DNA of 64,000 nucleotides from an uncultured Pseudomonadota bacterium. GTDB taxonomy: Bacteria; Pseudomonadota; Gammaproteobacteria; Methylococcales; Methylomonadaceae. Shown here in pieces: positions 988 to 32,842 of the stretch. A program made the position numbers and the translations under genes. The stretch is from contig CAISXF010000079.1 of NCBI GenBank assembly GCA_903889445.1, forward strand, positions 1 to 64,000, given 5' to 3'. The notes beneath the pieces are model-generated. The model searched no databases, had not been told where the DNA came from, and saw only the letters and a program-made list of their open reading frames with translations. Each line of letters opens with the position of its first letter. Position 1 is the stretch's first letter.

Positions 988-2181
988 TTATTTTGGTAAA
1001 GAGTTAATGAAATTTTTAATGCGTTTTGCCGCTTCAATACATTCTGCAAGTGGCGCGACTAGGGCAATTCTAACATGATTCGCAGCTGGATTTACGCCTT
1101 CAAATTCACGCGATAAAAAACTTCCTGGCAAAACCGTGACGTTTTCTTGAGCAAAAAGCTGTTGCGTAAAATCGGTGTCTGAAATCGATGTTTTAAGCCA
1201 AATATAAAAACTCGCGGGTGGTTTTTGAATTTCGCAAACATCACGCAAAATTTCAACAAACGCCGCGAATTTTTCACGATACAAACGTCGATTTTCGACA
1301 ACATGCGCTTCATCTTGCCACGCCGCAATGCTCGCGTATTGCGTCGGAACTGACATCGCGCAACCGTGATAAGTTCGATACGCAAAATAATGTTTCAAAA
1401 TTTCCGCGTCACCCGCGACAAATCCCGACCGCAAACCCGCGCAATTTGAGCGTTTCGACAAACTGTGAAATACCACACAACGTTTGAATTCACGATTGCC
1501 CATTTTTGCCGCAACTTCCAAAAGTCCAACGGGCGGATTCGCTTCGTCGTCGTACAATTCGCTGTAACATTCGTCGGACGCAATCACGAAATCGTATTTT
1601 TCAGCCAACGTTAAAACGGTTTCAAAATCTGCCGCGCTCATCACTGAACCGCTAGGATTCGCGGGCGAACAAATATAAAGCAATTGGCAACGTTGCCAAA
1701 CGTCAGCGGGAACGGCGGCAAAATCAGGCAAATAATTCGTTTCGGCTGTGGTGTTTAAAAAATACGGTTCTGCGCCCGCCAGTAAAGCCGCGCCTTCGTA
1801 GATTTGATAAAACGGATTTGGCATGACGACGAGCGAGTTTTTCGACGCATCAATCACACATTGCGCGAATGAAAATAACGCTTCGCGCGTGCCATTCACG
1901 GGCAAAACTTGAGTTTCAGGATTCACGTCGCAGGCAAAACGTTTTTCTAACCAATCTGCAATCGCTTCACGCAATTGTGGAATGCCTTTGGTAGTCGGAT
2001 AATTTGAAATGCTGTTGAGATTTTCAATCAAAACATCTTTGATAAAGGACGGCGTGGTGTGCGCGGGTTCGCCAATCGACAGCGTAATCGACGATTTATT
2101 CGCAGGCGGAATAATGCCTTTTTTTAGCTGTGCGAGTTTTTCAAATGGATACGGATGTAATTTTTTTAAATTTGGATTCAT
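988..2181 (-). CDS. dapC: Succinyldiaminopimelate transaminase
   Basis: A fold-type I PLP aminotransferase of 397 residues that transfers the amino group to N-succinyl-2-amino-6-ketopimelate, the step after DapD. The start [16 protein letters not shown] is characteristic of DapC. The PLP lysine lies in SLSKR, with [10 protein letters not shown] and SDECYSELY as the other cofactor-contact segments. It overlaps nothing, and dapD follows after two bases, which supports DapC over a generic aspartate aminotransferase. Confidence 0.93.
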
Positions 2182-2244
2182 AGATTATTGACACCTTGGT
2201 ATTTTTTGAACACATCGCCCTTTTAAGCATTTGAGATTTTTCAT

Positions 2245-2970
2245 TTAACGCACGCCTGTTTCAGTCACAATCACCTCAATACCACTTTGTTTCAATCGCG
2301 TCCGAATCGTACTCACACTGGTCATTTGCGTATAAGGTCCCAGTTTGATGCGATACCAAATCACTTCACCCACTTTTGCCCGCTCAACCCGCGCTTCAAT
2401 GCCCATCGATTCCAAATTGGTACGCAATTTTTCCGCGTCACTTGAATTTTTAAATGAACCAGCTTGCATCATGTAAGTAATCGCCGATTTCGTGGGTGTT
2501 TCAGCGGGAATCTTGGATGTAGTCACGTCAACTGGTGTTTCAGTTGGTGGATTCACTCGTTCCGCATGGGTTCGCATCACAATTTCATGATCTGGCACAA
2601 CGATTTCTTTGTCTTGCAAAATCGTATAAAAATCAAACTGCGGCATCACCCCATTTTCTAATTCCGTGGCGGCTTCGGGCGATAAATTAACATCTGGCGG
2701 TTGTTCCAATTTTTCAACCGTTTCGGGCGATAAACCTGATGAAATATTGGGTTTTGCGACTGGATAAATAGGTGTAACAGGCGCAGTGATTAGATTTTGG
2801 GGGAAATTCTGTTTCAGTTTTTTCAACCCATTACTTTTCAAATACACGCCCAAAACTACTAAACTAATCAGCAAGCCAGTAAGCAACATCCACTTAAACG
2901 CGCCACCCGACTTTTTAGGTGGGCGTTTGCGCGAATTTCTGTTGCGATTTGTACGATGTTGACTGGTCAT
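2245..2970 (-). CDS. SPOR-domain cell-division protein, FtsN-like
   Basis: The 241-residue protein has a basic cytoplasmic N-terminus rich in Arg/Lys (residues 1-26) and one membrane segment at about 27-44 (MLLTGLLISLVVLGVYL). A Pro-rich periplasmic linker follows, then a C-terminal SPOR domain at about 163-241 (YMMQAGSFKNSSDAEKLR ... WYRIKLGPY). SPOR domains bind denuded septal peptidoglycan. The topology matches FtsN, and an argS-SPOR arrangement is common in gammaproteobacteria. Its ATG follows the argS stop with no gap. FtsN identity is inferred from layout and position, since the essential FtsN segments are too divergent to call by eye. Confidence 0.8.
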   Translation of the reverse strand: MTSQHRTNRNRNSRKRPPKKSGGAFKWMLLTGLLISLVVLGVYLKSNGLKKLKQNFPQNLITAPVTPIYPVAKPNISSGLSPETVEKLEQPPDVNLSPEAATELENGVMPQFDFYTILQDKEIVVPDHEIVMRTHAERVNPPTETPVDVTTSKIPAETPTKSAITYMMQAGSFKNSSDAEKLRTNLESMGIEARVERAKVGEVIWYRIKLGPYTQMTSVSTIRTRLKQSGIEVIVTETGVR

Positions 2971-4728
2971 TTACATCGCTTCAGGTGCGCTAATACCTAA
3001 CAACGTCAAGCCATTCACCAACACTTGCTGAATGGCAGCAATTAAATTCAAGCGTGCATTTCGCACCGTGTCGTTCTCGACTAAAAATTGATGCGCGTTG
3101 TAATAAGTATGAAAATCGGTCGCCAATTGACGCAAATAGTTAATGATTAAATGCGGTTCATATTGCGTCGCCGCGCGTTCAATGACTTCGGGATAACGCG
3201 CCAACGTCGTCAATAATGCGGTTTCGTGTTCGGCAGTCAATTCGGCTAAATTCGCCATTCCCAACGCCATATCTTGAGTGAAACCTTTCTCACCCAATTG
3301 ACGGAACACGCTGCAAACTCTGGCGTGCGCGTATTGAACGTAGAAAACAGGATTTTCGTTTGATTTGGATTTCGCGAGTTCTAAATCGAAATCCATGTGT
3401 TGTTCGGAACGGCGCATAACGTAGAAAAATCGTGCGGCATCTCTGCCCACTTCGTCGCGCAATTCTCGCAACGTCACGAATTCGCCAGAGCGCGTGGACA
3501 TGGACACTTTTTCTGTGCCGCGCCACAAATTCGCAAACTGAACCAATAAAACATTTAACTTCGTTTGGTCTGCGCCCAAAGCCGTCAACGCCGCTCGAAC
3601 TCGCGCAATATAACCGTGATGATCCGCGCCCCAAATGTCGATTAACACGTCAAAACCGCGTTCTAATTTGTTCCAATGATAGGCAATATCCGACGCAAAA
3701 TAAGTATATTGACCATTGTCACGAATCACCACGCGGTCTTTTTCGTCGCCCAATTCGCTCGATTTAAACCACGTCGCACCGTCTTTTTCGTACAAATAAT
3801 TATTCGATTTTAAAACCGCCAATGACTTTTCAATTGAACCGTCGTCCATCAACGAACGTTCTGAAAACCATTGATTATACGTCGTGCCAAATTCGGCTAA
3901 ATCGTCTTTGATGTCGCTTAAAATATCGTTCAAACCAGCGTCAAAAACCACACTATAACCGTCGCCCAATAATGCTTTTGCACGCAAAATAAGTGCGTCG
4001 ATATAATCATCTTTATCGCCGCCTTCGGGTTCGTCGAGCGGTAAATCAGCAAAAACGGTTGCCGTTGAATGTGAATAATTTTTGCCGTGAAATTCAACTA
4101 ATTTTTGAGCAATATCGCGCACATAGTCGCCCCGATAAGCGTTGCTCGGGAACGTAAATGTTTCGCCGCAGGCTTCTAAATAGCGCAACCAAACGCTGGT
4201 CGCTAAAATGTCCATTTGTCGTCCAGCATCGTTGACGTAGTATTCACGATGCACTTCAAAACCCGTCGCCGTTAATAAATTTCCCATCACCGAACCATAC
4301 GCCGCGCCGCGTCCGTGACCAACATGCAGCGGGCCAGTAGGATTGGCGGACACAAATTCAACTTGAACTTTTTTGCCCGCGCCGATTTGGCTTTTGCCGA
4401 AATTTTCGCCCGCTGTTTGAATATCGGCAATCACTTGATATTGCGCGTTGGAATTCATGAAAAAATTGATAAATCCTGCGCCCGCAATTTCCACTTTTAA
4501 AATCGCTTCGTTTATGGGTAATGCGGCAATAATTTGTTCCGCAAGTTGGCGCGGATTGGTTTTGGTTGGTTTTGCCAACATCAATGCGATATTCGTAGCA
4601 AAATCACCGTGCGCCGTGTCGCGGGTGCGTTCAATGTGAACCGTAGGATTTAAATCGACGGGTAAAATCTCTTGCGTTTTTAATGCCGCGACAGCTTGAG
4701 AAATAAGGGTTTCGAGTTGTTTTTTCAT
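2971..4728 (-). CDS. argS: Arginyl-tRNA synthetase
   Basis: A class I aminoacyl-tRNA synthetase of 585 residues that charges tRNA-Arg. An N-terminal additional domain comes first. The HIGH-type motif appears in [21 protein letters not shown], and the C-terminal anticodon-binding DALR domain ends in [12 protein letters not shown]. The KMSKS loop has the usual ArgS form [11 protein letters not shown], in which the family often lacks a canonical lysine pair. The length is typical. The SPOR gene follows directly. Confidence 0.97.
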
Positions 4729-4781: not shown

Positions 4782-5483
4782 TTATCCATTATCACGATTT
4801 AACCGTATTTGAGCGCGTTCGATTTCGGTTTGCGCGACTTTATCACGCAAATAAACGGGCTGTGCGAATTCCGCCGCCACGCCTAAACCGCGTTGAAAAC
4901 CGTAAACGCCCAATTCTGCAATCGTGCTGGATTGCGGCAAAACGTCGCTTTCAATTTGCGTGACGAAACCTTCTGTTTTCAACAATAACTCTTCTTTGTA
5001 AACGCGCCAACCTGAACCCATTCCCAGCGCGGATTGTGCTGGAAATTCAATTTGTTCAACGGGTAAAACCGCTTCTTTGCCGACTAATTCCATAAAACCG
5101 TCGGCGTTTCGTTGATAAACACCCCAAAAAATTTCGCCAATGCGTGCGTCGATAGCAACAAAAGCGCGTTCGGGTAATCGATTTTGCGCCAATGCGGCAA
5201 GCGTTGAAACGGGAACAACGGGCAAATCCGCGCCAAACGCCAAACCTTGAACTACGCCGGTTGCAATGCGTAAACCGGTGAATGAACCCGGACCGCAACC
5301 AAACGCCAGCGCGTCGAGTTGTGACAATTTTAATTCGGCTTCCGCGAGCAATGATTCAATCATTGGCAATAATAATTTCGTGTGCGCTTTGGGTGTGATT
5401 TCAAAACGTTGCCGAATTTCACCGTCGATAAATAGCGCGGCAGAGCAGGCTTCGGTGGAGGTGTCGAGTGCGAGTAATTTCAT
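4782..5483 (-). CDS. tsaB: tRNA threonylcarbamoyladenosine biosynthesis protein TsaB
   Basis: TsaB is the non-catalytic partner of TsaD in the bacterial t6A complex that modifies ANN-decoding tRNAs. The 233-residue length is standard. The ASKHA-fold start MKLLALDTSTEACSAAL and the GPGSFTGLRIA signature are intact. The neighbour tsaD is not in the window. Downstream of it, at 5541-5619, lies a stranded copy of another gene's 3' end. Confidence 0.95.
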   Translation of the reverse strand: MKLLALDTSTEACSAALFIDGEIRQRFEITPKAHTKLLLPMIESLLAEAELKLSQLDALAFGCGPGSFTGLRIATGVVQGLAFGADLPVVPVSTLAALAQNRLPERAFVAIDARIGEIFWGVYQRNADGFMELVGKEAVLPVEQIEFPAQSALGMGSGWRVYKEELLLKTEGFVTQIESDVLPQSSTIAELGVYGFQRGLGVAAEFAQPVYLRDKVAQTEIERAQIRLNRDNG

Positions 5484-5540: not shown

Positions 5541-5619
5541 TTCATTTCCAAATACTCACAATGTTGGTGAAATCATCTGTCCATGCCGGCATATCGAAAT
5601 AAAGCGGTATTTTTTGCCA
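5541..5619 (-). repeat. 79-bp direct repeat, copy A: stranded 3' end of the MFS/spermidine-synthase-like gene
   Basis: The segment matches 9340-9418 with about nine mismatches in 79 bp by eye. Read on the minus strand it encodes WQKIPLYFDMPAWTDDFTN..IWK and a TGA stop. The intact gene at 9341-11602 ends the same way. Most differences are at third codon positions, so this copy diverged while it was still coding. It has no upstream gene body here and lies between tsaB and the VWA gene. Together with copy B it brackets the MoxR/VWA pair. Confidence 0.85.
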
Positions 5620-5639
5620 AAACAGGTTTGCGATAGTTT

Positions 5640-7280
5640 TCAAAGTACAACCACTTCGTCACTAAACTTGTCATCTATTCGTAAACCCGCACAAAGCACT
5701 GTGTAAATCGAACAATCTAACGCCGCTTTTCTGTTGTTTAGCGTTTCAACAAATTCCGTTGATAAACCACAATCGCCGTCTGAAATCATCAACACGTCCG
5801 CTTTTTGGTAGCTTTTTTGCACTTCGATGATTTCAAAAGCCCGTTTTAATGGGGTTTCAAAATCCGTCCCGCCACCGTAGCCCATTCGTAAAAATTGCAG
5901 TAAATCCGCCGCCGTCGCTTGATTGTGCATCGCAAATTCTTTCACTTGTCCCGAACTGCCAAACAACAAAACATACAACGCGCGTTTTTCTTTTTGCAAA
6001 ACCCCCGAAATTGCCAACAACAACGCTTTCGCTTTCAATAACGGTGCGCCTTCCATACTGCCCGACGTATCCAAACACGCCACAACCGCGCCCGTTCTTT
6101 TGTCGTGTGTTTCTTTTTCTTCGCGTTGCACAAATGTCGTGCCTTGCAATTCATACGTCAGCAGATTTTTTTCTAATAATCGTGCGTAAAACAGCATTTC
6201 CAGCGTTTCATCTTCTAAATTCAACAATTCGCTCGGCAACACGCGCATTAAATCATCGCTACGGTGTGTGCCATGCACTTCACTTTTGCTACGTTCTGGA
6301 ATGCGTTTTTGTTTTTTCTTTTCTTCCGAAATGTAATCACGCCCCATTTTTCGCACTAATTCTTTGATTCGTGCGTTGTCTTTGAGCGTATTCGCTAACG
6401 CCGCAAAATCTTCATTCAAATTTTTAAGTTGTGCGTAGGAAAAACCCGCGTCTGGGCATTGGGCGAGAAAGTGTTTTACTTCTTCATATTTCGTTGAAAT
6501 GTCAGTCAATGTTTGTCGAAAAACGGTCAATCGTTTGCGAACAGAATCGGGGATATTTTCATCTGAAATTTCCGTTTCGTATTCTTGCGTTGCCGCAAGT
6601 TCTTGGCGGATTTGTTCAATACTTTGCGAATTTAACGGCTGATTTTCAAAATAATCATTGATGGCTTGCCAATCAGGTTCGGGCGTTTCTTCCCGTTCAT
6701 TTTCGTTTTCCCAATCCCACAATCGCCATTTTGTAGCCCCCAATTTCTTACGCGCCGCACTTTTCAACGCGCCAATGGTCGGTTCCCATGTTCCATTTAT
6801 TTCAAACAAGCCGCTTAAAAATCCGCCTTGATAACCCGATTCAGCGTAATTCACGCATTTTTCAGAAAATTGATGGCAATTTTTTACCACCAATCCATAA
6901 AATGACCGTTCGCCTAAATGTCCAACTGCGCCAGCCGAAACCGTTTCATGTCCCACCGCGCCACGATTGTCAGAAGACACATAAATTTTGCGTCCCAATT
7001 TACTTTTTGACGTGAAATCGCGTGCGTCACTTTGTTGCACTTGGCTTTCTGCTAAACCTTCCACCACGATATTTGAAATTTTACCGTCGCCTGTGTAAAT
7101 GCCAGAATGCTCAACCAACACCCACAAATCACAATACAACACGCTTCCCGCAACAGGTGTCACTTTTTCTCGAAAATAATTGTCGATGAAATACTTCATT
7201 GGTTTCAAGCCAACATAAGCGGCTGAAAATAAACCGCTTCCAATTTTCGATGCGGCATTCGCTAAAAACGAAAACATCAC
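5640..7280 (-). CDS. LRAT-like domain fused to a ViaA-type VWA protein
   Basis: Residues 1 to about 150 resemble an LRAT/NlpC-P60 (papain-like) fold: a candidate catalytic His58 in VEHSGIY and Cys135 in VVKNCHQF, the circularly permuted order seen in LRAT-family acyltransferases and hydrolases. Residues 190-390 are charged and helical. Residues about 395-546 form a VWA domain with an intact MIDAS DTSGS (404-408) and a GGGTDF motif, closest in style to ViaA, the partner of RavA. It lies six bases after the MoxR-type ATPase gene on the same strand, as in other MoxR-VWA pairs. The natural reading is an ATPase that remodels or loads a VWA-linked enzyme. The catalytic role of the LRAT-like part is inferred from the His/Cys motifs only. 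No signal peptide is evident. Confidence 0.75.
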   Translation of the reverse strand: MMFSFLANAASKIGSGLFSAAYVGLKPMKYFIDNYFREKVTPVAGSVLYCDLWVLVEHSGIYTGDGKISNIVVEGLAESQVQQSDARDFTSKSKLGRKIYVSSDNRGAVGHETVSAGAVGHLGERSFYGLVVKNCHQFSEKCVNYAESGYQGGFLSGLFEINGTWEPTIGALKSAARKKLGATKWRLWDWENENEREETPEPDWQAINDYFENQPLNSQSIEQIRQELAATQEYETEISDENIPDSVRKRLTVFRQTLTDISTKYEEVKHFLAQCPDAGFSYAQLKNLNEDFAALANTLKDNARIKELVRKMGRDYISEEKKKQKRIPERSKSEVHGTHRSDDLMRVLPSELLNLEDETLEMLFYARLLEKNLLTYELQGTTFVQREEKETHDKRTGAVVACLDTSGSMEGAPLLKAKALLLAISGVLQKEKRALYVLLFGSSGQVKEFAMHNQATAADLLQFLRMGYGGGTDFETPLKRAFEIIEVQKSYQKADVLMISDGDCGLSTEFVETLNNRKAALDCSIYTVLCAGLRIDDKFSDEVVVL

Positions 7281-7286
7281 AACTCC

Positions 7287-9344
7287 TTACAACCAAACGT
7301 TATTGCGAATTTGTTGTAACAATAAATCTTCCATGCCTGTGTTGTTTTGTGTGGCGGGTTTTGATGTTGCGGTTGTTGATAAATTTCGTAATGCAGGACG
7401 ATTATTTGCATCGTCCCATTCCCAGATATTTTCAAAATCCCAACCCAAAGTCAGTTCATGATAACGTTGATTAAACATCGCGGCTGCCAACGTTTTGCCA
7501 TCTTTTCCAGCGGCATCATCACTGCCTTTGTACTGTGAATCAACTAGTAAAATAGTATCAATGGCAGCATTGTTTTTTAATGTGGGTTTTAATGTTTTGT
7601 GAGCAATACGAGAAAAATTTTTATCTCTAGTCGTGCTGAAGGCTCTCATGTTGGGGAATGTATCGCTCATTTTCACTGTAAGCACACCAACTGAACAATT
7701 TTGAATTGTGCTGTCGTTGCACATCCAAACAATCCCGCCAAAATTTGAACGTAGATGTTGTTGAATAATACCTGTTACAAAACAACGTTCCACACGGCTA
7801 TTTTTAGTCACCCTCTGTGCAATACATCCTAAAGAAGTCTCACCCAAAAGACTTACATTTATATCCACCGCGCAATCTACTATTTTGCAATCAATCGCAT
7901 TTCCTACTAAATTTGATTTAGCGTTGCATTCACTAATTTGGCAATTAGTAGCAGTATCTGATACCAAATTCTTATGTACTTCACATTGACTAATCTGACA
8001 ACCATGAGCATTAGTTACTAAACTAACATCAGATTGGCAATGTGTAATTTGGCTATCTTCTATGAACTTCGCTAAAACGCATTTTTCTAGTTTGAGATTA
8101 GAAAAGCTCGATTTTGATTGAACGTTAGAAAACACATAATTTTTTTTCAACAGGTTTTTAATCAAATGCCCATCACCATCATAATGCCCTTGAAAATCCA
8201 TCGGACTCCAATGCGTTAAACTGGCGCAATCAATATCAGCCGTTTGTTTAAAGTAATAACCTTTTGTGCCAATGTCGGGGCGGCTGATGTCCATAAAATC
8301 ATGTAACGATTGAATCAAAATCGGATCGTTTTCTGTGCCACTGCCTGAAAAACCTTTAATTTTTCCTTCGCTCTGATTCGGCACAGATTTTTTGATTTCT
8401 GATTCTTTTGTGATTTCTGCGTGCGTGGCGTTGAGAGGAACAGCGTAACTGTGTTTTTGTAACGTTTTGATGATAATGTCGCGGACTTTTTCGGCGTTAT
8501 CGTAATGATTCCACAAGCAATTCTTTAACAACATCACGTCGGATAAATCGACGGTTTGACGTTCATTCGTTGCCGCCGATACACGCAAAAGTTGAATGAT
8601 TTTTTTCAAACGACGGTCTGATAAATTTTCGCGGCGGTCTTCTTTGAAAGTGGTTTTATGTTGCGCCCAAATACTGCGAATCGCGTCAATAATTTCAGTT
8701 GGAAGGGTGACATTTTCAGCGGCTTGTTGAATGTGTGACAAATCAAGCTGGGTCAATTTTTGAAACGATGGCGCGGCGGTGTTTGCTTCAAAGAGTTTGT
8801 GTAAATTATCTTCGCGGACATAATCAACAAAACTCCGCACCAAAAAACGGTCGTACAAGGCGTTTAATTCTTCTTCGCCTGTGGGCAATTCATTTGACGC
8901 AGAAATCAACGACAACAACGGTACTTTTTGTGGCTCTGAACCGTTGTGAAAAACGCGCTCGTTTAAAATCGTGAGCAATGAATTGAGAATTGACGAACTG
9001 GCTTTGAAAATTTCATCTAAAAACGCGATTTGTACCGTTGGCAAATAACCCGCTGTGTTGCGTTTGAAACGGTCGGCTTTAAGTTCGGTAATCGACAACG
9101 GGCCAAAAATTTCTTCGGGCGTTGAAAATTTGGTCAACAGATATTCAAAATAACCTGCGTCCTGATGCGTTTCTAAAATATCCGCGACACGACGGGCAAT
9201 CATACTTTTGCCTGTTCCAGGTGGACCAATCAACACGAGATTTTCACCTGCTAACATTGTCAACAACGCGGTTTTGATGGCTTCTTCACGTTCAACTAAT
9301 CCGTGATTCATTTGAGTGAGTAATGTTTGAATCTTTTGTTTCAT
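7287..9344 (-). CDS. MoxR/RavA-type AAA+ ATPase fused to GLUG-like beta-helix repeats
   Basis: Residues about 1-300 are a MoxR-family AAA+ module: Walker A GPPGTGKS near 42-49, Walker B FLDEIF near 110, and the RavA-like segments FSTPEEIFGPLS and SASNELP. From about residue 332 the protein changes to GLUG-type repeats: GSGTENDPILI, YFKQTADIDC, FQGHYDGDGHLIKNL, then several short Cys/Ser turns, ending in LGWDFENIWEWD, the usual GLUG closing motif. Such repeats are normally found in secreted or surface beta-helix proteins. I start at ATG 9344 because it forms an ATGA overlap with the upstream gene's stop and has GGAA before it; an in-frame TTG lies at 9350. The start lies inside direct repeat copy B. 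Confidence 0.78.
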   Translation of the reverse strand: MKQKIQTLLTQMNHGLVEREEAIKTALLTMLAGENLVLIGPPGTGKSMIARRVADILETHQDAGYFEYLLTKFSTPEEIFGPLSITELKADRFKRNTAGYLPTVQIAFLDEIFKASSSILNSLLTILNERVFHNGSEPQKVPLLSLISASNELPTGEEELNALYDRFLVRSFVDYVREDNLHKLFEANTAAPSFQKLTQLDLSHIQQAAENVTLPTEIIDAIRSIWAQHKTTFKEDRRENLSDRRLKKIIQLLRVSAATNERQTVDLSDVMLLKNCLWNHYDNAEKVRDIIIKTLQKHSYAVPLNATHAEITKESEIKKSVPNQSEGKIKGFSGSGTENDPILIQSLHDFMDISRPDIGTKGYYFKQTADIDCASLTHWSPMDFQGHYDGDGHLIKNLLKKNYVFSNVQSKSSFSNLKLEKCVLAKFIEDSQITHCQSDVSLVTNAHGCQISQCEVHKNLVSDTATNCQISECNAKSNLVGNAIDCKIVDCAVDINVSLLGETSLGCIAQRVTKNSRVERCFVTGIIQQHLRSNFGGIVWMCNDSTIQNCSVGVLTVKMSDTFPNMRAFSTTRDKNFSRIAHKTLKPTLKNNAAIDTILLVDSQYKGSDDAAGKDGKTLAAAMFNQRYHELTLGWDFENIWEWDDANNRPALRNLSTTATSKPATQNNTGMEDLLLQQIRNNVWL

Positions 9345-9418
9345 TTCCAAATTCCTATAATGTTTGTGAAATCATCTGTCCACGCTGGCATATCAAAATA
9401 AAGCGGCATTTTTTGCCA
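9340..9418 (-). repeat. 79-bp direct repeat, copy B: functional 3' end of the MFS/spermidine-synthase-like gene
   Basis: This copy is the real C-terminus and stop codon of the gene at 9341-11602, and it also contains the ATG of the MoxR-type gene. It is about 89 percent identical (by eye) to 5541-5619. The two copies are in the same orientation and about 3.8 kb apart. Confidence 0.85.
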
Positions 9419-11602
9419 TGAACCGAGCTGGCTGGTTTGTAATGGTTTGAGCGTTTCGGGATTTTTTGCCAAAACGACCCAATCGGTGGCGACAATCAAA
9501 GGCGCGTCGGTTTGGGGTTTGAATTCGTTAATCAACGCGGCGAGGTGCATTTCTTCGGCGTGAATCGAAACCACTTTTTTCAACAACAAATGCCGATTCG
9601 TAATGTGAAACGCCAAAATGCCATTCGGTTTTAGCTTTTTGAAATAGAGTTCAATCGCTTCGCGCGTCAGCAAATGCGTTGGCACTGCGTCGGAACTAAA
9701 CGCATCCATCATCAATAAATCAAACGTGCCATCGGGTTTATTTTGAATGGACAAACGCGCGTCACCAATTTCTGAAACCGCATTCGGCGCACATTGGCTG
9801 AGATAAGAAAAATAGGCAGAATTTTTGGCAATGTCCACAACGAGCGGATCAATTTCGTAAAGCGTCCACGTTTGCGACGGTTTCGCGTAACACGCCAACG
9901 CGCCCGCACCCAAACCCACCACACCGATATTCCAGCTTTCATTTTGAGCATCGAACGTTTTAAATAATTGTCCCATCGGACTGGGGCGGCTGTAATACGT
10001 CAACGGTGTTTTGCTTTCGGTCGGAATTAAACGCTGTGCGCCGTGTTTGGTCGTACCGTGAAATAATTCGTGATACATTTCGGGCTGATTTTTTTCGTCG
10101 GTCAACAGACTTTCACGCACCGCCATCACGCCAAAAAAAGTGCGTTCTTGCATCAAGGTGTGACTTTCGGCGTGATGCAAACTCATCGCCGCAGAAATAA
10201 TCACGCCCATCAAGCCCGCATACGCTACGACGCGCTGACGTAAAAAATACACCGCAATCGTCAACACGCACAAACTAATCACCACGCCGTCGAAATAATC
10301 CGTTAAATTCGCCACGCTGAAATAAATCCCTGCGCCAATTATCAGCAATAAAAGCGGGTCAATCAGTTGCATTCCAATTTCTGGTAACGACAATTTTTTC
10401 AAACTCGGACGCAACAATAACGCCGCGATAATCATCAACGGATATTCATAAATGCCATTAAAAACAAATGGCGCGACGAACGTGTTAAACATTCCGCCGA
10501 GCATTCCCGCAAACGACATAATCAAATAATACGTTGTGAGGTGCGAACTGTGCGGACGTTGCGCGGCGAGTTCCCCGTGGCAAACCATAATCGCAAAGAA
10601 AAACGCTATAACGTGAAAAAACAAATACATCCAATACGGCAAATCAGCGGGATTGATAAACGCATACGCTACGAATGGAATTAAAAATACGGGCTGCAAT
10701 CGCACAAACCACGCATGACTTTTATCGTTCCAGCGCGAAAAGACAACGACGAATGAAAACAAATAAACCGTGAGCGGAATAATCCAAAGTAACGGCACGG
10801 ATGCAATATCGGTGCTGATAAAATTCGTCAAACCGAGCAATAAACTCGATGGCACAAAAGCCAATGCGCCCCAATAAAATTTGGTTTTCCACGAAAGCGG
10901 TGGCGCGTTTGACGCTGAAATTGTGACGTTTTCGTTTTCAATTGATTGATAATTTTTCCACAACGCAAACCCACACGCCGCAATTAACAAACACAATCCC
11001 ACATAACCCAACGTCCAATCCGATTGTTGCGCGTTCAAACCCCAATTCGGTTCAATCAAAAAAGGATAACTCAACAACGAAACCAAACTGCCCGTATTGC
11101 TGGCGGCGTAGAGAAAATATGGGTCGTGGCTGTCTTTATGTCCAACGTGTGCAAACCATTTTTGAATCAGTGGCGCGGTCGTCGAAAGCACGAAAAAGGG
11201 CAAACCAATTGCCAACGCCAAAGTTGAAAATAGCCAAAAAGTCGGATTGCTTTCTGTTGGCGGGATTAAATTTTCGGGCAAACCGACGGGCAACGCCAAA
11301 AAACTGAGTGAAATAACGGCGAGATGAACAATGATTTGATGGTTGGATTTTAAACGTGTGCCGAGCAAATGCGCGTACAAATAACCCAAAAACAACACGC
11401 TTTGATAAAACACCATGCAGCTATTCCACACCGCAGGCGTGCCGCCAAGTAACGGCAAAAGCAATTTTCCAAACAGCGGTTGCAACACAAACATCAATAA
11501 TGCACTGGAAAATAACGTGCTGGCGAATAAGGCAATTAGGAAGATGGAACGATTTTGAAATGTAGGCATGAGTGACAACGAAGGCAATTGTTTGAAAGAC
11601 AA
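9341..11602 (-). CDS. Membrane protein fused to a spermidine-synthase-like methyltransferase-fold domain
   Basis: A 753-residue fusion. The first roughly 480 residues contain many hydrophobic helices of the MFS-like type (for example ALFASTLFSSALLMFVLQPLF, with later helices in PFFVLSTTAPLIQ and VIAFFFAIMVCHGELA). The C-terminal 230 residues are a Rossmann domain of the spermidine/spermine synthase family (VVGLGAGALACYA, LYEIDPLVVDIA, DAFSSDAVPTHLL). These 'fused MFS/spermidine synthase' proteins are widespread and have no settled substrate. The start could be slightly downstream of the first Met. Its 3' end is duplicated at 5541-5619. Confidence 0.85.
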   Translation of the reverse strand: MSFKQLPSLSLMPTFQNRSIFLIALFASTLFSSALLMFVLQPLFGKLLLPLLGGTPAVWNSCMVFYQSVLFLGYLYAHLLGTRLKSNHQIIVHLAVISLSFLALPVGLPENLIPPTESNPTFWLFSTLALAIGLPFFVLSTTAPLIQKWFAHVGHKDSHDPYFLYAASNTGSLVSLLSYPFLIEPNWGLNAQQSDWTLGYVGLCLLIAACGFALWKNYQSIENENVTISASNAPPLSWKTKFYWGALAFVPSSLLLGLTNFISTDIASVPLLWIIPLTVYLFSFVVVFSRWNDKSHAWFVRLQPVFLIPFVAYAFINPADLPYWMYLFFHVIAFFFAIMVCHGELAAQRPHSSHLTTYYLIMSFAGMLGGMFNTFVAPFVFNGIYEYPLMIIAALLLRPSLKKLSLPEIGMQLIDPLLLLIIGAGIYFSVANLTDYFDGVVISLCVLTIAVYFLRQRVVAYAGLMGVIISAAMSLHHAESHTLMQERTFFGVMAVRESLLTDEKNQPEMYHELFHGTTKHGAQRLIPTESKTPLTYYSRPSPMGQLFKTFDAQNESWNIGVVGLGAGALACYAKPSQTWTLYEIDPLVVDIAKNSAYFSYLSQCAPNAVSEIGDARLSIQNKPDGTFDLLMMDAFSSDAVPTHLLTREAIELYFKKLKPNGILAFHITNRHLLLKKVVSIHAEEMHLAALINEFKPQTDAPLIVATDWVVLAKNPETLKPLQTSQLGSWQKMPLYFDMPAWTDDFTNIIGIWK

Positions 11603-12479: not shown

Positions 12480-12989
12480 ATGAGTTACATGGCAATTGAT
12501 ACCATTTTAGGACAATATGACGCAGAATTATCTGCGGCGGAAGCGCATGGCATGGCGAGTGGCTTGCTTGCAGTGAATGTAAATTTTAGCGGCGAACAAT
12601 GGTTGACCGAATTATTACGGCACACCGCGCCATTAACTACTGAAACGCGCGTGGATTTAATGGGTTTATTTGATGACACGCAAGACGTGTTATTGCATGA
12701 CGAATTTGAATTTGAATTATTGTTGCCCGATGAAGATGACGCAACCTTAATCGAGCGCGTTGAAGCGTTAAGTCAGTGGTGCAAAGGCTTTTTATTCGGC
12801 GTAGGTTTTGCCAATACCGCGCCACAATTTTCACCGCAAGCGCAGGAAATTATCAAAGATATTGCCGAAATGACCAAATTAGACACGGCTATCGAATTGG
12901 AAGACGAAGAAGCTGAAAATGATTTTATGGAATTAACCGAGTATTTACGCGCGGGCGTGTTGGCGTTGCGGGATGAGTTTACTAAATAA
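12480..12989 (+). CDS. ygfB: UPF0149 family protein YgfB
   Basis: The 169-residue protein has the family pattern: ELSAAEAHGMASGLLAV near the N-terminus, CKGFLFGVGF in the middle and an acidic C-terminal helix region (ELEDEEAENDFMELTEYLRAGVLAL). Its start is divergent from the zapA group. ygfB normally heads the ygfB-pepP-ubiH operon. Here a DNA methyltransferase gene separates it from pepP. The molecular role is poorly defined; in pseudomonads a YgfB homologue affects antibiotic resistance regulation. Confidence 0.93.
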   Translation: MSYMAIDTILGQYDAELSAAEAHGMASGLLAVNVNFSGEQWLTELLRHTAPLTTETRVDLMGLFDDTQDVLLHDEFEFELLLPDEDDATLIERVEALSQWCKGFLFGVGFANTAPQFSPQAQEIIKDIAEMTKLDTAIELEDEEAENDFMELTEYLRAGVLALRDEFTK

Positions 12990-13005
12990 TGAAACAAGGT
13001 TTATC

Positions 13006-14523
13006 GTGAAAAACAAAATTTATTACGGCGACAACCTAGACGTTCTGCGCCGCTACATCAAAGATGAAACGGTCGATTTGTGTTACATCGACCCGCCGTT
13101 TAATTCCAAACGCAATTACAACCAAATTTACAACAACATCGGCAAAGAAGATGCCGCGCAATCGCAAGCGTTCACCGACACCTGGACATGGGACGACAAC
13201 GCCAATCAAGGGCTGGCTGAAATCAAAACCAATTACAACGGCGTTTTCACCGAGCAAAGCATCGATTTAATTTGCGGTTTAGAAAAGGTGTTGAAAAAAG
13301 GCGCGTTATTCGCGTATTTGGTGAGCATGACGTTACGGATTGCAGAAATTCACCGCGTGTTAAAACCCACCGGCAGTTTTTATTTTCATTGCGACCCAAC
13401 CGCCAGCCATTATTTGAAATTGGTTTTAGATGCTATTTTTTGTACGACGGGCGGGGATTTCTTGAATGAAATTGTTTGGTGTTACAACGTTGGTGGCAAA
13501 GGTAGTAAGCATTGGGCGAGAAAGCATGATGTCATTTTTTTCTATAGCAAATCACACAATTATTATTTTGACGGTAAATCTGTAGGAATAGCACGAGATA
13601 CGGGAACGAAAAGTTTTGGCGGCAAAATGGGGGTTGATGAAGACGGTAGACGATACCAAGACAAATTAGTGAAAAAAACAAATAAATACTATCGCTATTA
13701 TGTAGATGAACCAAAAATACCAGAAGATTGGTGGGTTGATATTAACTCAATACAATCAGGCTCAAAAGAACGTTTAGGTTATCCAACTCAAAAACCCGAA
13801 GCCCTTTTAGAGCGCATTATTAAAGCGAGTTCAAACAAAGATGGCATTATTTTAGATGCGTATTGCGGTTGCGGCACGACGGTTGCCGTGGCGCAAAAGT
13901 TGAATCGTCAATGGATTGGCATCGACATAACTTATCAAAGTATTTCGTTGATTTTGAAACGCCTCGAAGAACAAAGCAAAGATGCGTTAGACAATGTTGA
14001 AATTAGCGGCGTGCCAAAAGATTTTGAAAGCGCGGTAGCATTGGCGAATAAATCGGATGATAAAACGCGCAAAGAGTTTGAGAAATGGATGGTGTTACGG
14101 TATTCGGATAATCAAGCCATTATTAACGAAAAGAAAGGCGGCGACGGGGGCGTTGATGGCGTGGCGTATATTCCCGACCATATTGTTGGAAAGGTCATTG
14201 AATTTAAAAAAGTGATTTTCAGTGTGAAATCGAACGCAAAATTAACGCCGGCGGTTACTCGTGAATTATTCGGCGCGGTTGAACGTGAAAACGCCGCGAT
14301 TGGGATTTTATTAACGCTGTATCCAATGCCGAATTTAGTTAAAGACAGCAAACAATACGGGCTTTATCACAACGAATATGTCAGAGGTGGCAAAGATTAT
14401 CCAAAAATTCAGGTGATTTGCGTGGATGATATTTTGAATGGCGCGATTATGGACTTTCCTATTCCGGCTGAAGTGGTAAAAAAAGCCACACAGAAAGCGA
14501 CTGAACAGAAAGAGTTGTTTTAA
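13006..14523 (+). CDS. Site-specific DNA methyltransferase with an Mrr-like C-terminal domain
   Basis: An amino-methyltransferase of the beta order: catalytic motif IV DPPF at residues 29-32 precedes the SAM-binding motif DAYCGCGTT near residue 284. Between them is the target-recognition region. From about residue 345 the protein continues into a restriction-endonuclease-like (Mrr/PD-(D/E)xK) segment: GGDGGVDGVAYI, then VIFSVKSNAKL. The expected acidic or Gln residue before xK reads Ser, so nuclease activity is doubtful. GTG 13006 is preferred because AAGG lies six bases upstream and the family begins KNKIYYGDNL; ATG 12973 would overlap ygfB by 17 bases. It interrupts the usual ygfB-pepP neighbourhood and no separate endonuclease gene is adjacent. 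Probably an acquired modification or single-protein restriction-modification gene. Confidence 0.85.
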   Translation: MKNKIYYGDNLDVLRRYIKDETVDLCYIDPPFNSKRNYNQIYNNIGKEDAAQSQAFTDTWTWDDNANQGLAEIKTNYNGVFTEQSIDLICGLEKVLKKGALFAYLVSMTLRIAEIHRVLKPTGSFYFHCDPTASHYLKLVLDAIFCTTGGDFLNEIVWCYNVGGKGSKHWARKHDVIFFYSKSHNYYFDGKSVGIARDTGTKSFGGKMGVDEDGRRYQDKLVKKTNKYYRYYVDEPKIPEDWWVDINSIQSGSKERLGYPTQKPEALLERIIKASSNKDGIILDAYCGCGTTVAVAQKLNRQWIGIDITYQSISLILKRLEEQSKDALDNVEISGVPKDFESAVALANKSDDKTRKEFEKWMVLRYSDNQAIINEKKGGDGGVDGVAYIPDHIVGKVIEFKKVIFSVKSNAKLTPAVTRELFGAVERENAAIGILLTLYPMPNLVKDSKQYGLYHNEYVRGGKDYPKIQVICVDDILNGAIMDFPIPAEVVKKATQKATEQKELF

Positions 14524-20575: not shown

Positions 20576-23500
20576 TTACTGACAGGCTTCACATTCAGAA
20601 TTATCGATAGAGCAAAGAAGGACAGGGGATTCATCTTCTTTAATGACTTCTTCGTAAGACAATTCGGAAATTTGTTGCTTCAAATAGTAAGTGGATTTAA
20701 GCCCAAGCTCCCACGCCAAGAAATACCAATCTGAAATCACATTGCCTTTCACGTTAGCACGTTTAAACAAATTCACCGACTGTGATTGGTCGATATATTT
20801 TTGACGAACAGCCGCCGCTTTAATCAACCATGTTTGGTCAATTTCAAACGCGGTTTTGCACAATTCTGGGCGGTTATGACGCATCGCAGGATCAACCACT
20901 TTGAATTTTCCTGATTTGTTTTCTTTCACAAACACTTGTTTGTAAATTGGCTCGATGCACGGTGTTGTGCCGACAATGTTTGCAATCGTGTTGTGATTCA
21001 CCATACCATTCGCCACATATTCATGCTCGTTCGGCACTTCAATATCAAACGTTGGAACAGCTTCTTTTTGTGGCACGTTTGAAATCACAGGCAACAACAA
21101 AATACCTTCTGACATCAACTGCCACGCTAAGGTGTTTTTAACGTCTTCATATTCAATGGCTAATTTTTCAAGCGCGTGAAACGATAAATGACCTTGACGT
21201 TTTGCGGTCGCCAAAAATGTTTTGGTGAATTTACTTAATCCGCGAAGAGCTTGAACTTCAGTAATCACTTTTTTGCCGTTCACGCACAAGCCTCTCAAGC
21301 TATCTCGTTCTGAACATTTATAAGCAGATACTTTTGATAAAGGTTCGCTCGAATGCCAACCAACTTCACTTAGAAATTTCACGGTGTGACTCGCGTTGGA
21401 GATTCTGACGCGATGAACGTCACGATAACCAAATGACCCAGGCTGTGATTTAATCCGTTTCGTCATATAACCCAATGCCCATAAAAGCGCGTGGAGTTGT
21501 GACGCTAAAGTTTCGCTCACCGTGCCAATTTCAACAACAGGCGAACCGCGTTCTTGAAACGTCAATGAACCATAGGTGAACAAACCTTGTAAAAATTTTG
21601 CAATAATCGTTCGTGGTGACATTCTAATTTTGAGTGGAATGAACGCGCCAGCCGCTCCTTCGCCGTTATTACCGCTCGGTTTTGTCCACAATTCTTCGAC
21701 AAATAATCTTCCGAGTTCAACCGAATAAAAACATAACGTTGTCACGCCCTGCGAGTGTTCATCCGCTGAATAAACGCCCCACGCTTTACCGATATTTCGC
21801 AACACGTCTAAAAATTCAACGTTGTTTTCATTTAGACTGATTTTTACACCTTCCGGCGTGCCGTCAGTTTTGTATTTAACGTAACCATTTGCCATATACG
21901 CGCCTAAAAACACTGCCATATCGTCATCAAGCAAAGCGGGGAGGGCGGTTTCTTTTGAATTTATGCCTTGTTCGCCCAATGTAATTATCGGTTGAATTTC
22001 AGTGGCTTCGTAGCCACCTAAACGGTGCGCGACTAAATCATCCACAGCGATGTCTTTTAAAAATTTCCATTCCAGTTTGTTTGCAGACGATAACACTTTT
22101 AAACGGTGCGAATCCGTGCCGGTGACAGCGTGACCGTTTGCCGTTGTAATGGTTCTAACGTTGTGAACACCGTTGCAATAAAACTTACTCGCTGGACTGT
22201 TCGCCGATTGTTGATTAACCACTAAATCAATCGCTTGCCATTGCTCGCCATTCACATCGCCAATTTCGTCCATTCGTAACAAACCGTTTTGTCCTGCAAC
22301 CAACGTATCTGCGGTAACGCAAGCCGTGGGTGCAATCGCCATACAGTTTGAATTTCGCATACCGTGCTGTTGAATTTCAGTTCGCAACGTATCCCATGAT
22401 TCCGCATCACGGCTTCCGTGTCGCCATTCGTCAGGTAATTGTCGAGCGGTATCAATCGGCAAAATGCCGTGCGCCCATTTTGAGCCTTCGTAACTACTGT
22501 AATGCCCTTTTTCTTTGGCGATTTCCATGGATGATTTGATTGCCCAATACGAGAAATCTTCAAATACAAAATCCGTTAAACGCAAATGTTCGTCCGATTC
22601 CCAATCGATGCCTTGCGAAATAATGTAATCCGTCCATCCCATCAAACCCAAACCAACTGGACGATGTTTTAAGTTTGAACGTCGCGCTTTTTCAGTCGGA
22701 TAAAAATTCAAATCGATGACGTTATCGAGCATTCGCATCGCAATCGGAATCACGCGCGGGAAATCCGCTTGCGTGCAAACTGAAACGTTAATTGAACCCA
22801 AATTACAAACGGCTGATTCTTCGTCGCTCGTATTCAGCGATATTTCTGAACAAAGATTACTTGAGCGAATAATCCCCACATGATTTTGGGGATTACGGCG
22901 ATTGTGTTCATCTTTGAAAGTGATTAACGGCGCACCGGATTCGACCAATGCCGTGATAATCCCTTTCCACAATTCCATTGCGTCGATAACTTTAATCGCG
23001 TCGCCACGTTCTTCAGCCGCCAAATAATTGCGTTCAAATTCTTCCCCGTGGGTTTCACACAATTCGACGTTTTTGTGCGAACAAAATAACGACCATTTGG
23101 CGCGGGCTTTGACGCGCTTCATGAATAAATCGTTTGCCCAAATGTACGGGAAAATTTCACGCGCCCTTAAACGTTCATCGCCGTTGGGTTTTTTCAAATT
23201 GATAAAACGTTCGATGTCGCCATGCCACGGCTCTAAATAAGCGGCGAAAGAACCATTGCGCTTGCCTCCTTGGTTAACAGAAACGGCGGTATCGTTGAAA
23301 ACTTTTAAATAGGGGACAACGCCTGACGACATGCCGTGCGTACTGCCAATGCCCGCGCCAGCAGGGCGAACGCGCGTCCAATCGGTGCCGATGCCGCCTG
23401 CAAATTTTGAATACAACGCACATTCTGTCATCGTCGCAAAAATGCCTTTGCCGAAATTTACGCCGTCTTGTTCTTCCCAAATCGAATCGTCAGTTGTCGT

Positions 23501-24151
23501 GACAAAGCATGAACTCATTTGTGAGAATTTCGTTCCTGAATTGAAAAGGGTCGGTGTTGAACTCACAAATTCAAATTTCGACAGCACATTATAAAATTCA
23601 ATCGCCCAGCTTGTGCGTGTTTCCGGTGTTTCATTAAGAGCGATGCCCATTGCGACGCGCATCCAAAAATGCTGCGGCATTTCAATAAGTTTTTGATTTT
23701 CATCACGCAATAAATAGCGATCATAAACCGTTTGCATTCCTAAGTATTTGAACAAATCATCACGCGAAACATCGATAGCAGCATTTAATGTTTCTAAATC
23801 AAATGATTGCATTTCTGGTTTAATTTTATCTAGCAAAATCGCGTTTGAAATATAAACCGATAACGTTGGGTAATCCGTGTGTTGTGTGACTTCTTTATAA
23901 ATTTGTTGCAATAATAAACGGGCGGCGGCGAATTCATAATCAGTTTTACCGACATCAATCAAACTCGCCGCGCTGTTGACGAGAGCCGTGTGAATTTGCG
24001 CGGTTTTGATGCCATCGAAAAATTGAATATGGGCATTAGTTTCGATTTCGGACAATGAAACCTCTAAACCATTGCACGCCCATTCGACCGCTTTGTGGAT
24101 TTTGGCAATAGCGATTTTTTGGGTTTCACCATTTCGTTTGACTACAATCAT
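20576..24151 (-). CDS. nrdA: Ribonucleotide reductase class Ia, alpha subunit, containing an intein
   Basis: 1191 residues, made of about 747 residues of NrdA and a 444-residue in-frame intein (residues 611-1054). The N-terminal ATP-cone (VVKRNGETQKIAIAKIHKAV) and the catalytic barrel with SNLCSEISL, AVCNLGSINVS and MAIAPTA are intact. The redox-active tail ends CSIDNSECEACQ. Splicing would join MAIAPTA to TIANIVGTTPC, restoring the conserved loop. Upstream are two NrdR-like boxes; nrdB and the dihydroorotase homologue follow. Function depends on splicing. Confidence 0.96.
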   Translation of the reverse strand: MIVVKRNGETQKIAIAKIHKAVEWACNGLEVSLSEIETNAHIQFFDGIKTAQIHTALVNSAASLIDVGKTDYEFAAARLLLQQIYKEVTQHTDYPTLSVYISNAILLDKIKPEMQSFDLETLNAAIDVSRDDLFKYLGMQTVYDRYLLRDENQKLIEMPQHFWMRVAMGIALNETPETRTSWAIEFYNVLSKFEFVSSTPTLFNSGTKFSQMSSCFVTTTDDSIWEEQDGVNFGKGIFATMTECALYSKFAGGIGTDWTRVRPAGAGIGSTHGMSSGVVPYLKVFNDTAVSVNQGGKRNGSFAAYLEPWHGDIERFINLKKPNGDERLRAREIFPYIWANDLFMKRVKARAKWSLFCSHKNVELCETHGEEFERNYLAAEERGDAIKVIDAMELWKGIITALVESGAPLITFKDEHNRRNPQNHVGIIRSSNLCSEISLNTSDEESAVCNLGSINVSVCTQADFPRVIPIAMRMLDNVIDLNFYPTEKARRSNLKHRPVGLGLMGWTDYIISQGIDWESDEHLRLTDFVFEDFSYWAIKSSMEIAKEKGHYSSYEGSKWAHGILPIDTARQLPDEWRHGSRDAESWDTLRTEIQQHGMRNSNCMAIAPTACVTADTLVAGQNGLLRMDEIGDVNGEQWQAIDLVVNQQSANSPASKFYCNGVHNVRTITTANGHAVTGTDSHRLKVLSSANKLEWKFLKDIAVDDLVAHRLGGYEATEIQPIITLGEQGINSKETALPALLDDDMAVFLGAYMANGYVKYKTDGTPEGVKISLNENNVEFLDVLRNIGKAWGVYSADEHSQGVTTLCFYSVELGRLFVEELWTKPSGNNGEGAAGAFIPLKIRMSPRTIIAKFLQGLFTYGSLTFQERGSPVVEIGTVSETLASQLHALLWALGYMTKRIKSQPGSFGYRDVHRVRISNASHTVKFLSEVGWHSSEPLSKVSAYKCSERDSLRGLCVNGKKVITEVQALRGLSKFTKTFLATAKRQGHLSFHALEKLAIEYEDVKNTLAWQLMSEGILLLPVISNVPQKEAVPTFDIEVPNEHEYVANGMVNHNTIANIVGTTPCIEPIYKQVFVKENKSGKFKVVDPAMRHNRPELCKTAFEIDQTWLIKAAAVRQKYIDQSQSVNLFKRANVKGNVISDWYFLAWELGLKSTYYLKQQISELSYEEVIKEDESPVLLCSIDNSECEACQ
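20990..22321 (-). mobile_element. Intein in NrdA with degenerate LAGLIDADG endonuclease domain
   Basis: Begins with Cys (CVTADTLVAG, block A), has the block B motif VTGTDSHRL, and ends in VNHN followed by Thr as the +1 extein nucleophile, with block F in FDIEVPNEHEYVANG. This is a complete splicing set. The central part has two LAGLIDADG-like helices, FLGAYMANGYV (21880-21906) and FLQGLFTYGSL (21561-21600). Neither carries the acidic residue that ends an active motif (Asn in the first, Tyr/Thr in the second), so the homing nuclease is probably dead while splicing should work. Confidence 0.93.
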
Positions 24152-25927: not shown

Positions 25928-26290
25928 ATGATGATGAAACGTTTTTTATTTGTGCTTCGAAAATCCAGTTACGACGGGCTTTATGTGCAGGAAATGCTGG
26001 ATATTATTTTAACGACGGCGGCATTTGAGCAAGAAGTGAGCGTGTTATTTTTGGACGATGCTGTTTTTCATTTAAAAGTGAATCAAAATGCCCAAAATTC
26101 AGGTTATAAAAATACTGCAATGCTATTTGAAATTTTGCCGACTATGGACGTGAATGCTATTTTTGTTGAAACGGAATCGCTACTTGAACGCGGTTTGAAT
26201 GCAGAAATGTTAACGCAATCGGTACAATTCAAATCACGCGCCACGATTGCTGATTTCATGGCGCAATTTGATGTTGTTTTTGCAGGCTAA
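25928..26290 (+). CDS. tusC: Sulfurtransferase complex subunit TusC
   Basis: A DsrF/TusC-type protein of 120 residues (KRFLFVLRKSSYDGLYVQEMLDIIL near the start, FDVVFAG at the end, full family length). I start at ATG 25928, one base after the tusD stop; two more in-frame ATGs follow at once, so the exact start is uncertain. Its last 35 bases overlap the 3' end of the convergent jetD. The usual next gene tusB is absent and the Wadjet operon takes its place. Confidence 0.88.
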   Translation: MMMKRFLFVLRKSSYDGLYVQEMLDIILTTAAFEQEVSVLFLDDAVFHLKVNQNAQNSGYKNTAMLFEILPTMDVNAIFVETESLLERGLNAEMLTQSVQFKSRATIADFMAQFDVVFAG

Positions 26291-27449
26291 TTTCCAAATA
26301 ACTATAACTCACGCGCTCTTGTTCTAAGCGAATATGATGCGTTTTTAACGTTTGAAAAACGGCTTGTTCAGCTGCCGTTAAATTCGTTAATTCATGTGAA
26401 ACAGTTTTATCTTCTGGTTCTTTCGTCCACAAATTTTCAAATTTCATTAGCGTTTTGTTATCCATCAAAAACGATTCTGTTTCTGGAAAATAACCGCGCA
26501 TTCGAGACAAAATCGCAAAACCATGACTGTCCAAATCGCCCCAATAATAGATTTTTACGTTTTTCAAAAGTTGCGCCTGAGCGAGTAAATCGACTGCGTA
26601 ACCTAAGCGAAAAATCACCAGCGCATTTTCAACGTGTGGAAACGCTAAACCGTTAATTTTATTTTCGGTGATAAAAACAGCGTTAATCGGCAATTCAAGC
26701 TGATTAAATTCAAGCAAGCTCAACGTCAAATCCATCAATCCACAAATCGCCAAACGCTTGTCTAAAATCCGTAATCGAATCTGCGGCAATTCGTAACGCA
26801 AACCATAACGGCGTTCAAATCCATGATTACTCAATCCCGTGATGGTCAAATTACGCGCGGTTTCTGGCAAAATTACATCGAGAATTTCAGTCAAAATCGC
26901 CGTGTTATTTTCGATAAATTTCGTATCCACGCCCACAATATCAAGTTGCCGAATATACACATCAGGTCGCGGATGCTGCATAAAATAATCACAAACCGCC
27001 AGCAACGAAAACCAAACCGTCGCAAAATTCATCAGTTTGAACGGGTAACGATTCAACCAATTTTTTAACGTTGAAAAGCGTTGCAATGTTTTCTCCGCCA
27101 ACGTTTTAAATTCTGAAAATTCGTCACCGTGACGCACATAACGCAAAAAAATCGCTTCATTTTCAAATTCAACCGCAACGGGGATTTTTTGTTCGCCCAA
27201 TTGCCGATGATTCACGACGCTATGCAAAATCGTAAAACCATGTTTTTTGCTTTGTTCATTCAACGCATAAATCGCCTCTTGAACCGCAGAAAATTCCGTC
27301 AATAAAACTTTCGATGACCAACTCGGCAACGAAATCATCACAGGAAAACACACGCTATTCTCTAAAAATGCACGATGTAAATCCCCGCGTTGCCAGATTT
27401 TCGCCGCTTGTTCGAGAACGTATTTAGACGGGATTAACTCACGCGCCAT
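26256..27449 (-). CDS. jetD: Wadjet protein JetD, Toprim-type nuclease subunit
   Basis: JetD cleaves DNA after loop extrusion by the JetABC SMC complex in Wadjet anti-plasmid defence. The 397-residue protein has the DUF3322-like N-terminal part (ISLPSWSSKVLLTEF) and the DUF2220/Toprim-like C-terminal part with the acidic catalytic signature YYWGDLDSHGFAILSRMR. It overlaps jetC by 11 bases and is last in the operon, running into the 3' end of tusC. Length and motifs look intact. Confidence 0.93.
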   Translation of the reverse strand: MARELIPSKYVLEQAAKIWQRGDLHRAFLENSVCFPVMISLPSWSSKVLLTEFSAVQEAIYALNEQSKKHGFTILHSVVNHRQLGEQKIPVAVEFENEAIFLRYVRHGDEFSEFKTLAEKTLQRFSTLKNWLNRYPFKLMNFATVWFSLLAVCDYFMQHPRPDVYIRQLDIVGVDTKFIENNTAILTEILDVILPETARNLTITGLSNHGFERRYGLRYELPQIRLRILDKRLAICGLMDLTLSLLEFNQLELPINAVFITENKINGLAFPHVENALVIFRLGYAVDLLAQAQLLKNVKIYYWGDLDSHGFAILSRMRGYFPETESFLMDNKTLMKFENLWTKEPEDKTVSHELTNLTAAEQAVFQTLKTHHIRLEQERVSYSYLEISLQKQHQIAP

Positions 27450-31393: not shown

Positions 31394-31401
31394 ATTTTTG
31401 A

Positions 31402-32841: not shown

Positions 32842-32842
32842 T

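Follow-up and report, generated by a model that had tools for sequence, protein, structure and literature searches.

We describe here a two-gene cassette at positions 5541-9418 of a 64,000-nucleotide stretch of DNA (hereafter the window) from an uncultured member of the Methylomonadaceae (contig CAISXF010000079.1, assembly GCA_903889445.1). The pair belongs to the MoxR-VWA kind and combines domain fusions for which we found no description in the open-access literature: its ATPase, of RavA type, carries a C-terminal beta-helix, and its ViaA-like partner a predicted LRAT-like enzyme domain ahead of the VWA domain (Table 1). Comparison of strains establishes that the beta-helix of the ATPase has been replaced wholesale, as a module, between near-identical copies of the gene. 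We suggest that the pair looks like an undescribed and probably defensive variant of MoxR-VWA systems, and the function set out below is a prediction.

The general assignment rests on a gene for a MoxR-clade AAA+ protein standing beside one for a VWA protein with a metal ion-dependent adhesion site (MIDAS). The ATPase matches the Pfam families bpMoxR (E=7e-61) and AAA_lid_8, as well as the NCBIfam RavA model NF010054 (E=2.8e-77), the latter over residues 3-303 only and at 260.9 bits against an equivalog cut-off of 681. Its partner matches Pfam VWA_2 above the cut-off (E=8e-9) and the NCBIfam ViaA model NF008230 (E=7e-39; 134.3 bits against an equivalog cut-off of 500), here only over residues 281-501. 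These profiles bear out the preliminary description of this DNA, which had read a minus-strand MoxR-VWA pair from the letters and the open reading frames (ORFs). Both ORFs of the cassette and its 79-nt direct repeat are present, with both genes on the minus strand and 6 nt between them. The ATPase most likely starts at the ATG at 9344 (MKQKIQ...), the start common to all relatives, and this ATG overlaps the stop codon of the upstream gene, spd, as ATGA. The Walker motifs of the ATPase, and in the partner His58, Cys135 and the MIDAS, are kept in homologues down to 62% identity.

Behind the lid of the ATPase no RavA-type C-terminal region follows; the profile match ends at residue 303, and residues 330-614 form the beta-helix. 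As we read it, the sequence of this region follows the pattern of GLUG-type beta-helices, and a profile built on it finds 3n6z, a beta-helix structure (E=2.8e-7). The AlphaFold2 model of the ATPase contains a beta-helix with a predicted local distance difference test score (pLDDT) of 76-97 over most of residues 330-560, and a Foldseek search with the model returned 3n6z as the top PDB match and RavA itself next. Over residues 1-198 the model is of low confidence, and there the assignment rests on homology to RavA. The earlier proposal of GLUG repeats on the ATPase is thus upheld by profile, model and structure search, including a high-confidence structure prediction for the C-terminal region, although the Pfam Glug family itself (PF07581) is not significant: it has no match at E<=0.001 in the genome of origin, and one of nine family members matches at E=0.0057. 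The likeness to GLUG-type proteins such as 3n6z extends to an N-terminal cap (...GSGT..DPILI...GYYF.QTADIDC...G.YDG.G), the rungs and a C-terminal cap (...LGWDF..VWEWD...PALR); those proteins, however, are secreted or surface-exposed, whereas here the helix is attached to an AAA+ ATPase that is predicted to be intracellular.

It is this helix that changes between strains. Among congeners, protein identity is 86-99% in the AAA+ part and 79-99%, depending on the segment, in the VWA protein, but 38-69% in the helix core; the AAA+ module of the window (residues 1-300) is 97-99% identical in amino acids to those of the congeners G216 and G217. Between these two, the first 400 nt of the ATPase genes match at 100% and the VWA genes at about 82-95%, and BLASTN aligns nucleotides 1-1169 and 1795-3738 of the operon with 33 nt only in between, across some 600 nt of helix. 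Third-position identity for the same two genomes is 0.99 over codons 1-140 and 0.42 in the helix. Nonsynonymous (dN) and synonymous (dS) divergence both jump in the helix; aligning such divergent repeats inflates dS, and the DNA-level BLASTN result is therefore the stronger evidence for exchange. Moreover, the closest relative shifts along the operon (window and G216 in the caps, G216 and G217 in the first half of the AAA+ module, G215 and G217 in the C-terminal cap and the VWA part), as expected for recombination.

One might suppose that a tolerant repeat domain has simply diverged by slippage and relaxed selection, and the fold is indeed repeat-based, with a variable number of rungs. We consider this quite unlikely, as synonymous divergence jumps at the module borders while the flanking DNA is 90-100% identical, which calls for replacement and not only drift; both caps are also conserved, and dN/dS is well below 1. 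A diversity-generating retroelement was considered as well and set aside: no reverse transcriptase (RVT_1) is present in the source assembly, which is 95% complete, making such an element unlikely, and the divergence is spread over all codon positions. That the helix is the part exchanged between strains fits the role of sensor suggested below, and the swap would point to a retroelement-free route for diversifying an intracellular receptor. It also supplies naturally occurring variants of the presumed receptor, on an ATPase that is otherwise almost constant, and these are well suited to specificity-swap experiments.

The other fusion, the LRAT-like domain that the preliminary description had placed on the VWA protein, stands in part. 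His58 and Cys135 are unchanged in all eight homologues, and the orthologue in G226 scores 29.2 bits against LRAT (PF04970), above the cut-off of 24.3; the window protein itself falls below that cut-off (18.8-21.8 bits, E=0.002), and the position of the second LRAT histidine is held by Asn70. A PDB search with the model of the LRAT-VWA protein (Foldseek) gave mainly VWA matches. We note that free-standing LRAT-like proteins of about 156-159 residues (L096 7815-8294 and L093 7459-7929), which score 36.6-38.2 bits with the same family, have both the LRAT module and a C-terminal W(R/K).W(D) tail in common with the LRAT-VWA proteins.

Within the host genus, the pair is found in six of 18 genomes and always just downstream of spd. 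Five congeners (G205, G210, G213, G214, G220) have an empty site, in which spd runs directly into the gene for an ATP-binding cassette (ABC) solute-binding protein, and in the remaining seven spd has other neighbours, including toxin-antitoxin, nuclease and methylase genes. A core gene pair is thereby ruled out, the cassette being missing from 12 of the 18 and the empty sites directly spliced; a conserved syntenic position in all relatives, which the preliminary description had named as speaking for a core locus, is not what we find. Its notion of an acquired unit holds as far as the locus is variable, but since the pair always occupies one locus within the genus, it resides in a hotspot rather than moving freely. 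Similarly, the repeat said to bound the pair does lie on both sides, yet it is a duplicated 3' end of spd and not the end of a mobile element: it comprises the last 26 codons of that gene, and homology stops at the spd stop codon. The two copies are 89% identical to each other (BLASTN E about 1e-24), and the distal copy is also found in G216, G217, G218 and G219, with none in G215. In G216 and G218 the two copies within one genome are closely alike, which suggests recombination between them. An independent, repeat-delimited mobile element was accordingly rejected; no recombinase, be it integrase or transposase, lies within the cassette.

Outside the genus the pair is rare. In the same order it occurs in G226 and G229 at about 67-68% identity and at another locus, and G001 holds a VWA fragment at a contig end. 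The beta-helix ATPase and the LRAT-VWA protein co-occur in the same eight genomes of the order, the ninth being that with the contig-end fragment only. Sampling the phylum evenly (399 genomes) yielded no further full LRAT-VWA protein. When the window protein was searched against about 85,000 species genomes, a scan that detects close relatives only, so that more distant cases may exist, one case was added, GS5, a metagenome bin outside the sampled order (62% identity over the alignment). The GS5 operon opens with a WYL regulator, 14 nt upstream; regulators of this class are often tied to defence operons. As to the host, its genome holds a gene of the PmoA/AmoA family, consistent with a methanotroph. 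Copies borne by phages or plasmids were discarded as candidates, the matches there being ordinary relatives of ViaA or RavA that lack the LRAT part. Between the two genes of the pair, G229 carries an ORF like a transposase associated with repetitive extragenic palindromes (Y1-type; L090 4453-4923), and in G226 this interval spans about 1 kb and contains no long ORF.

One alternative reading would make the pair a variant of the RavA-ViaA stress or assembly chaperone, remodelling a membrane complex or adjusting lipid composition in respiratory or antibiotic stress, with the helix docking the client. Both proteins are clearly homologous to RavA and ViaA. In Escherichia coli these two bind anionic phospholipids at the inner membrane and influence both the composition of the membrane and the sensitivity of the cell to aminoglycosides (PMC9489729); ordinary RavA-ViaA pairs, looked at as a contrast, are present in other genera of the family. 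A wholesale swap of the recognition domain between close relatives would nevertheless be unusual for a housekeeping chaperone, as would the patchy presence with clean empty sites, and we regard this reading as rather unlikely. The likeness to RavA-ViaA lies in the AAA+ module with its lid, the helical middle and VWA domain of ViaA, the two-gene order and the theme of membranes and lipids. The differences are a beta-helix in place of the C-terminal region of RavA, an LRAT-like enzyme in place of the N-terminal region of ViaA, a patchy and variable locus, and scores under both NCBIfam equivalog cut-offs.

We lean instead, by a modest degree, towards a two-component conflict module derived from RavA-ViaA, in which a variable sensor on the ATPase controls a VWA-borne effector active on membrane lipids. 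Gene adjacency and co-occurrence, the exchange of the helix, the conserved motifs, the variable presence, the WYL regulator in GS5 and the literature all argue for it: predicted conflict systems repeatedly contain MoxR-VWA pairs (PMC7159879), which are thought to use ATP hydrolysis to remodel a protein that the VWA MIDAS binds, and permuted NlpC/P60 enzymes act on lipids, with Tox-Act1 cleaving phosphatidylglycerol and phosphatidylethanolamine (PMC12994826). We picture an AAA+ ring, hexameric by homology, that would bear the variable beta-helix as its recognition domain; the ViaA-like partner would dock through its VWA domain and keep its thiol enzyme, of LRAT (permuted NlpC/P60) type, in check. 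When the helix recognises a ligand that derives from an invader or is otherwise altered, the ATPase may remodel the VWA protein at the expense of ATP and so release the LRAT domain or position it at the inner membrane, where it would attack the acyl groups of phospholipids, stopping growth or killing the infected cell. More tentatively, one can imagine a full immune system, possibly protecting against phage, in which the AAA+ protein with its interchangeable beta-helix receptor triggers a membrane-lipid-destroying LRAT effector held by the VWA adaptor, and homologous recombination across conserved flanks, not a retroelement, diversifies the receptor between strains.

Several points weigh against the conflict-module reading. 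PADLOC matches neither protein to a specific defence family, giving only weak generic AAA matches, and scans of viral contigs found no relative. The dN/dS of the helix, about 0.1-0.4, does not amount to positive selection in the strict sense. For the LRAT region, AlphaFold2 gives a pLDDT of about 25 from a shallow alignment, and the fold is not confirmed. Residence in a hotspot, moreover, does not by itself prove defence.

A third possibility is that the pair serves self/non-self recognition or competition between bacteria, the helix recognising a polymorphic factor of kin or a toxin and the LRAT-VWA protein acting as immunity or toxin function. A polymorphic recognition domain is swapped among strains, and antibacterial effectors do occur in the LRAT superfamily (PMC12994826); still, the cassette shows no secretion signal, polymorphic-toxin tail or immunity gene, we read both proteins as cytosolic, and we think this possibility very unlikely. 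With LRAT and permuted NlpC/P60 lipid enzymes such as Tox-Act1 (PMC12994826), the window protein shares the His/Cys core of the permuted papain-like superfamily, but here the predicted enzyme is fused to a VWA co-chaperone and Asn70 replaces a histidine.

The conflict module that we favour also has close published kin in the MoxR-vWA ternary conflict systems (PMC7159879), with which it shares a MoxR-vWA core bearing fused enzymatic or recognition modules and an AAA domain matching the bpMoxR profile. Unlike these, it consists of two genes, with the recognition module fused to the ATPase; no third conserved gene (VMAP, iSTAND, FtsH or beta-propeller) is found across the loci compared, and the pair is thus not a ternary system as defined. 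Neither LRAT nor GLUG is mentioned in the main text of that study (Kaur et al., 2020, PMC7159879). A variable recognition domain on a MoxR-vWA system is likewise known from sensors diversified by retroelements (PMC10907252); there a C-type lectin variable repeat is involved, whereas here the whole beta-helix is exchanged, in a genome in which no reverse transcriptase was found. Our search of the open-access literature covered an anti-phage role of RavA/ViaA, GLUG joined to an AAA ATPase, and a MoxR-vWA-LRAT system, and returned none of them. If the proposal is right, the RavA-ViaA family, for which a physiological role is still under debate, would be tied to biological conflict, and the pair would be a minimal two-gene MoxR-VWA system with sensor and effector on separate, directly testable proteins.

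Table 1. Features of the cassette and its anchor gene (window positions).
Feature	Position	Strand	Basis or remark
Distal copy of spd 3' end (79 nt, last 26 codons and stop)	5541..5619	-	20 nt past VWA stop codon
ViaA-like LRAT-VWA protein, 546 aa	5640..7280	-	ORF, Pfam/NCBIfam profiles
VWA domain (aa 395-546), full MIDAS motif DTSGS, T472-D473, D501	5643..6098	-	profile, alignment, Foldseek
LRAT-like permuted NlpC/P60 domain, predicted (about aa 38-190)	6711..7169	-	Pfam profile, alignment
LRAT-like residues His58; Asn70; Cys135	7107-7109; 7071-7073; 6876-6878	-	homologue alignment
RavA-like MoxR AAA+ ATPase with C-terminal beta-helix, 685 aa	7287..9344	-	ATG 9344; profiles, model
C-terminal cap and conserved tail, ending DLLLQQIRNNVWL	7290..7502	-	homologue alignment
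Right-handed beta-helix (aa 330-614), rungs of about 20 aa with Cys	7503..8357	-	profile, AlphaFold2, Foldseek
Hypervariable helix core (about aa 392-612)	within 7503..8357	-	congener comparison
AAA+ module and lid (aa 1-300): Walker A GPPGTGKS, Walker B FLDE, sensor I, sensor II	8445..9344	-	profiles, alignment
Proximal repeat copy, intact spd 3' end	9340..9418	-	repeat comparison
spd, fused major facilitator superfamily/spermidine-synthase-like gene, hotspot anchor	9341..11602	-	ORF, profile, neighbourhood comparison

Among the occupants of the spd site in other congeners are PDDEXK_2 genes (G207, G209, G211 and G215, degraded in G219, with start-like remnants in G216-G218), PDDEXK_4 genes (G207, G211), VapB/PemK (G207), an HTH/MqsA-like gene (G206), DNA methylase genes (G208, and G216 beyond the cassette) and genes resembling those of insertion sequences. 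Wherever the contig shows it, spd is the left neighbour of the cassette, and the right neighbour differs in nearly every genome (tsaB, a C5 methylase, a lolA-like gene, a PIG-L-like deacetylase, RND/TolC; compared at L094, L097, L098, L100, L092 and window 4782-5483). The window genome has its solute-binding gene on a different contig, together with genes resembling those of restriction-modification systems. L170 (G000:C107, 10,717 bp) splits a solute-binding-protein gene, holds a type III-like restriction-modification system, an endonuclease-like gene and a C5 methylase, and its two ends are identical over 139 bp within the 10,715 bases compared (or about 141 should the identity run on to the contig end); it is either a circle of the assembly graph or a genuine circular molecule derived from the spd hotspot.

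Elsewhere in the window, PADLOC identifies a complete Wadjet type I operon on the minus strand at 26256-32901 (E-values of 5e-191 for JetA, 4e-71 for JetB, 0 for JetC and 1.5e-116 for JetD). A DNA N6/N4 methylase with a fused Mrr-like nuclease region, the latter sub-threshold, is encoded on the plus strand at 12973-14523. Its gene is an insertion between yecA and pepP; in G215 (L097 9091-10952) these two genes adjoin directly. Finally, the large subunit of ribonucleotide reductase (minus strand, 20576-24151) contains an apparent in-frame intein, running from about CVTADTLV to MVNHNT.

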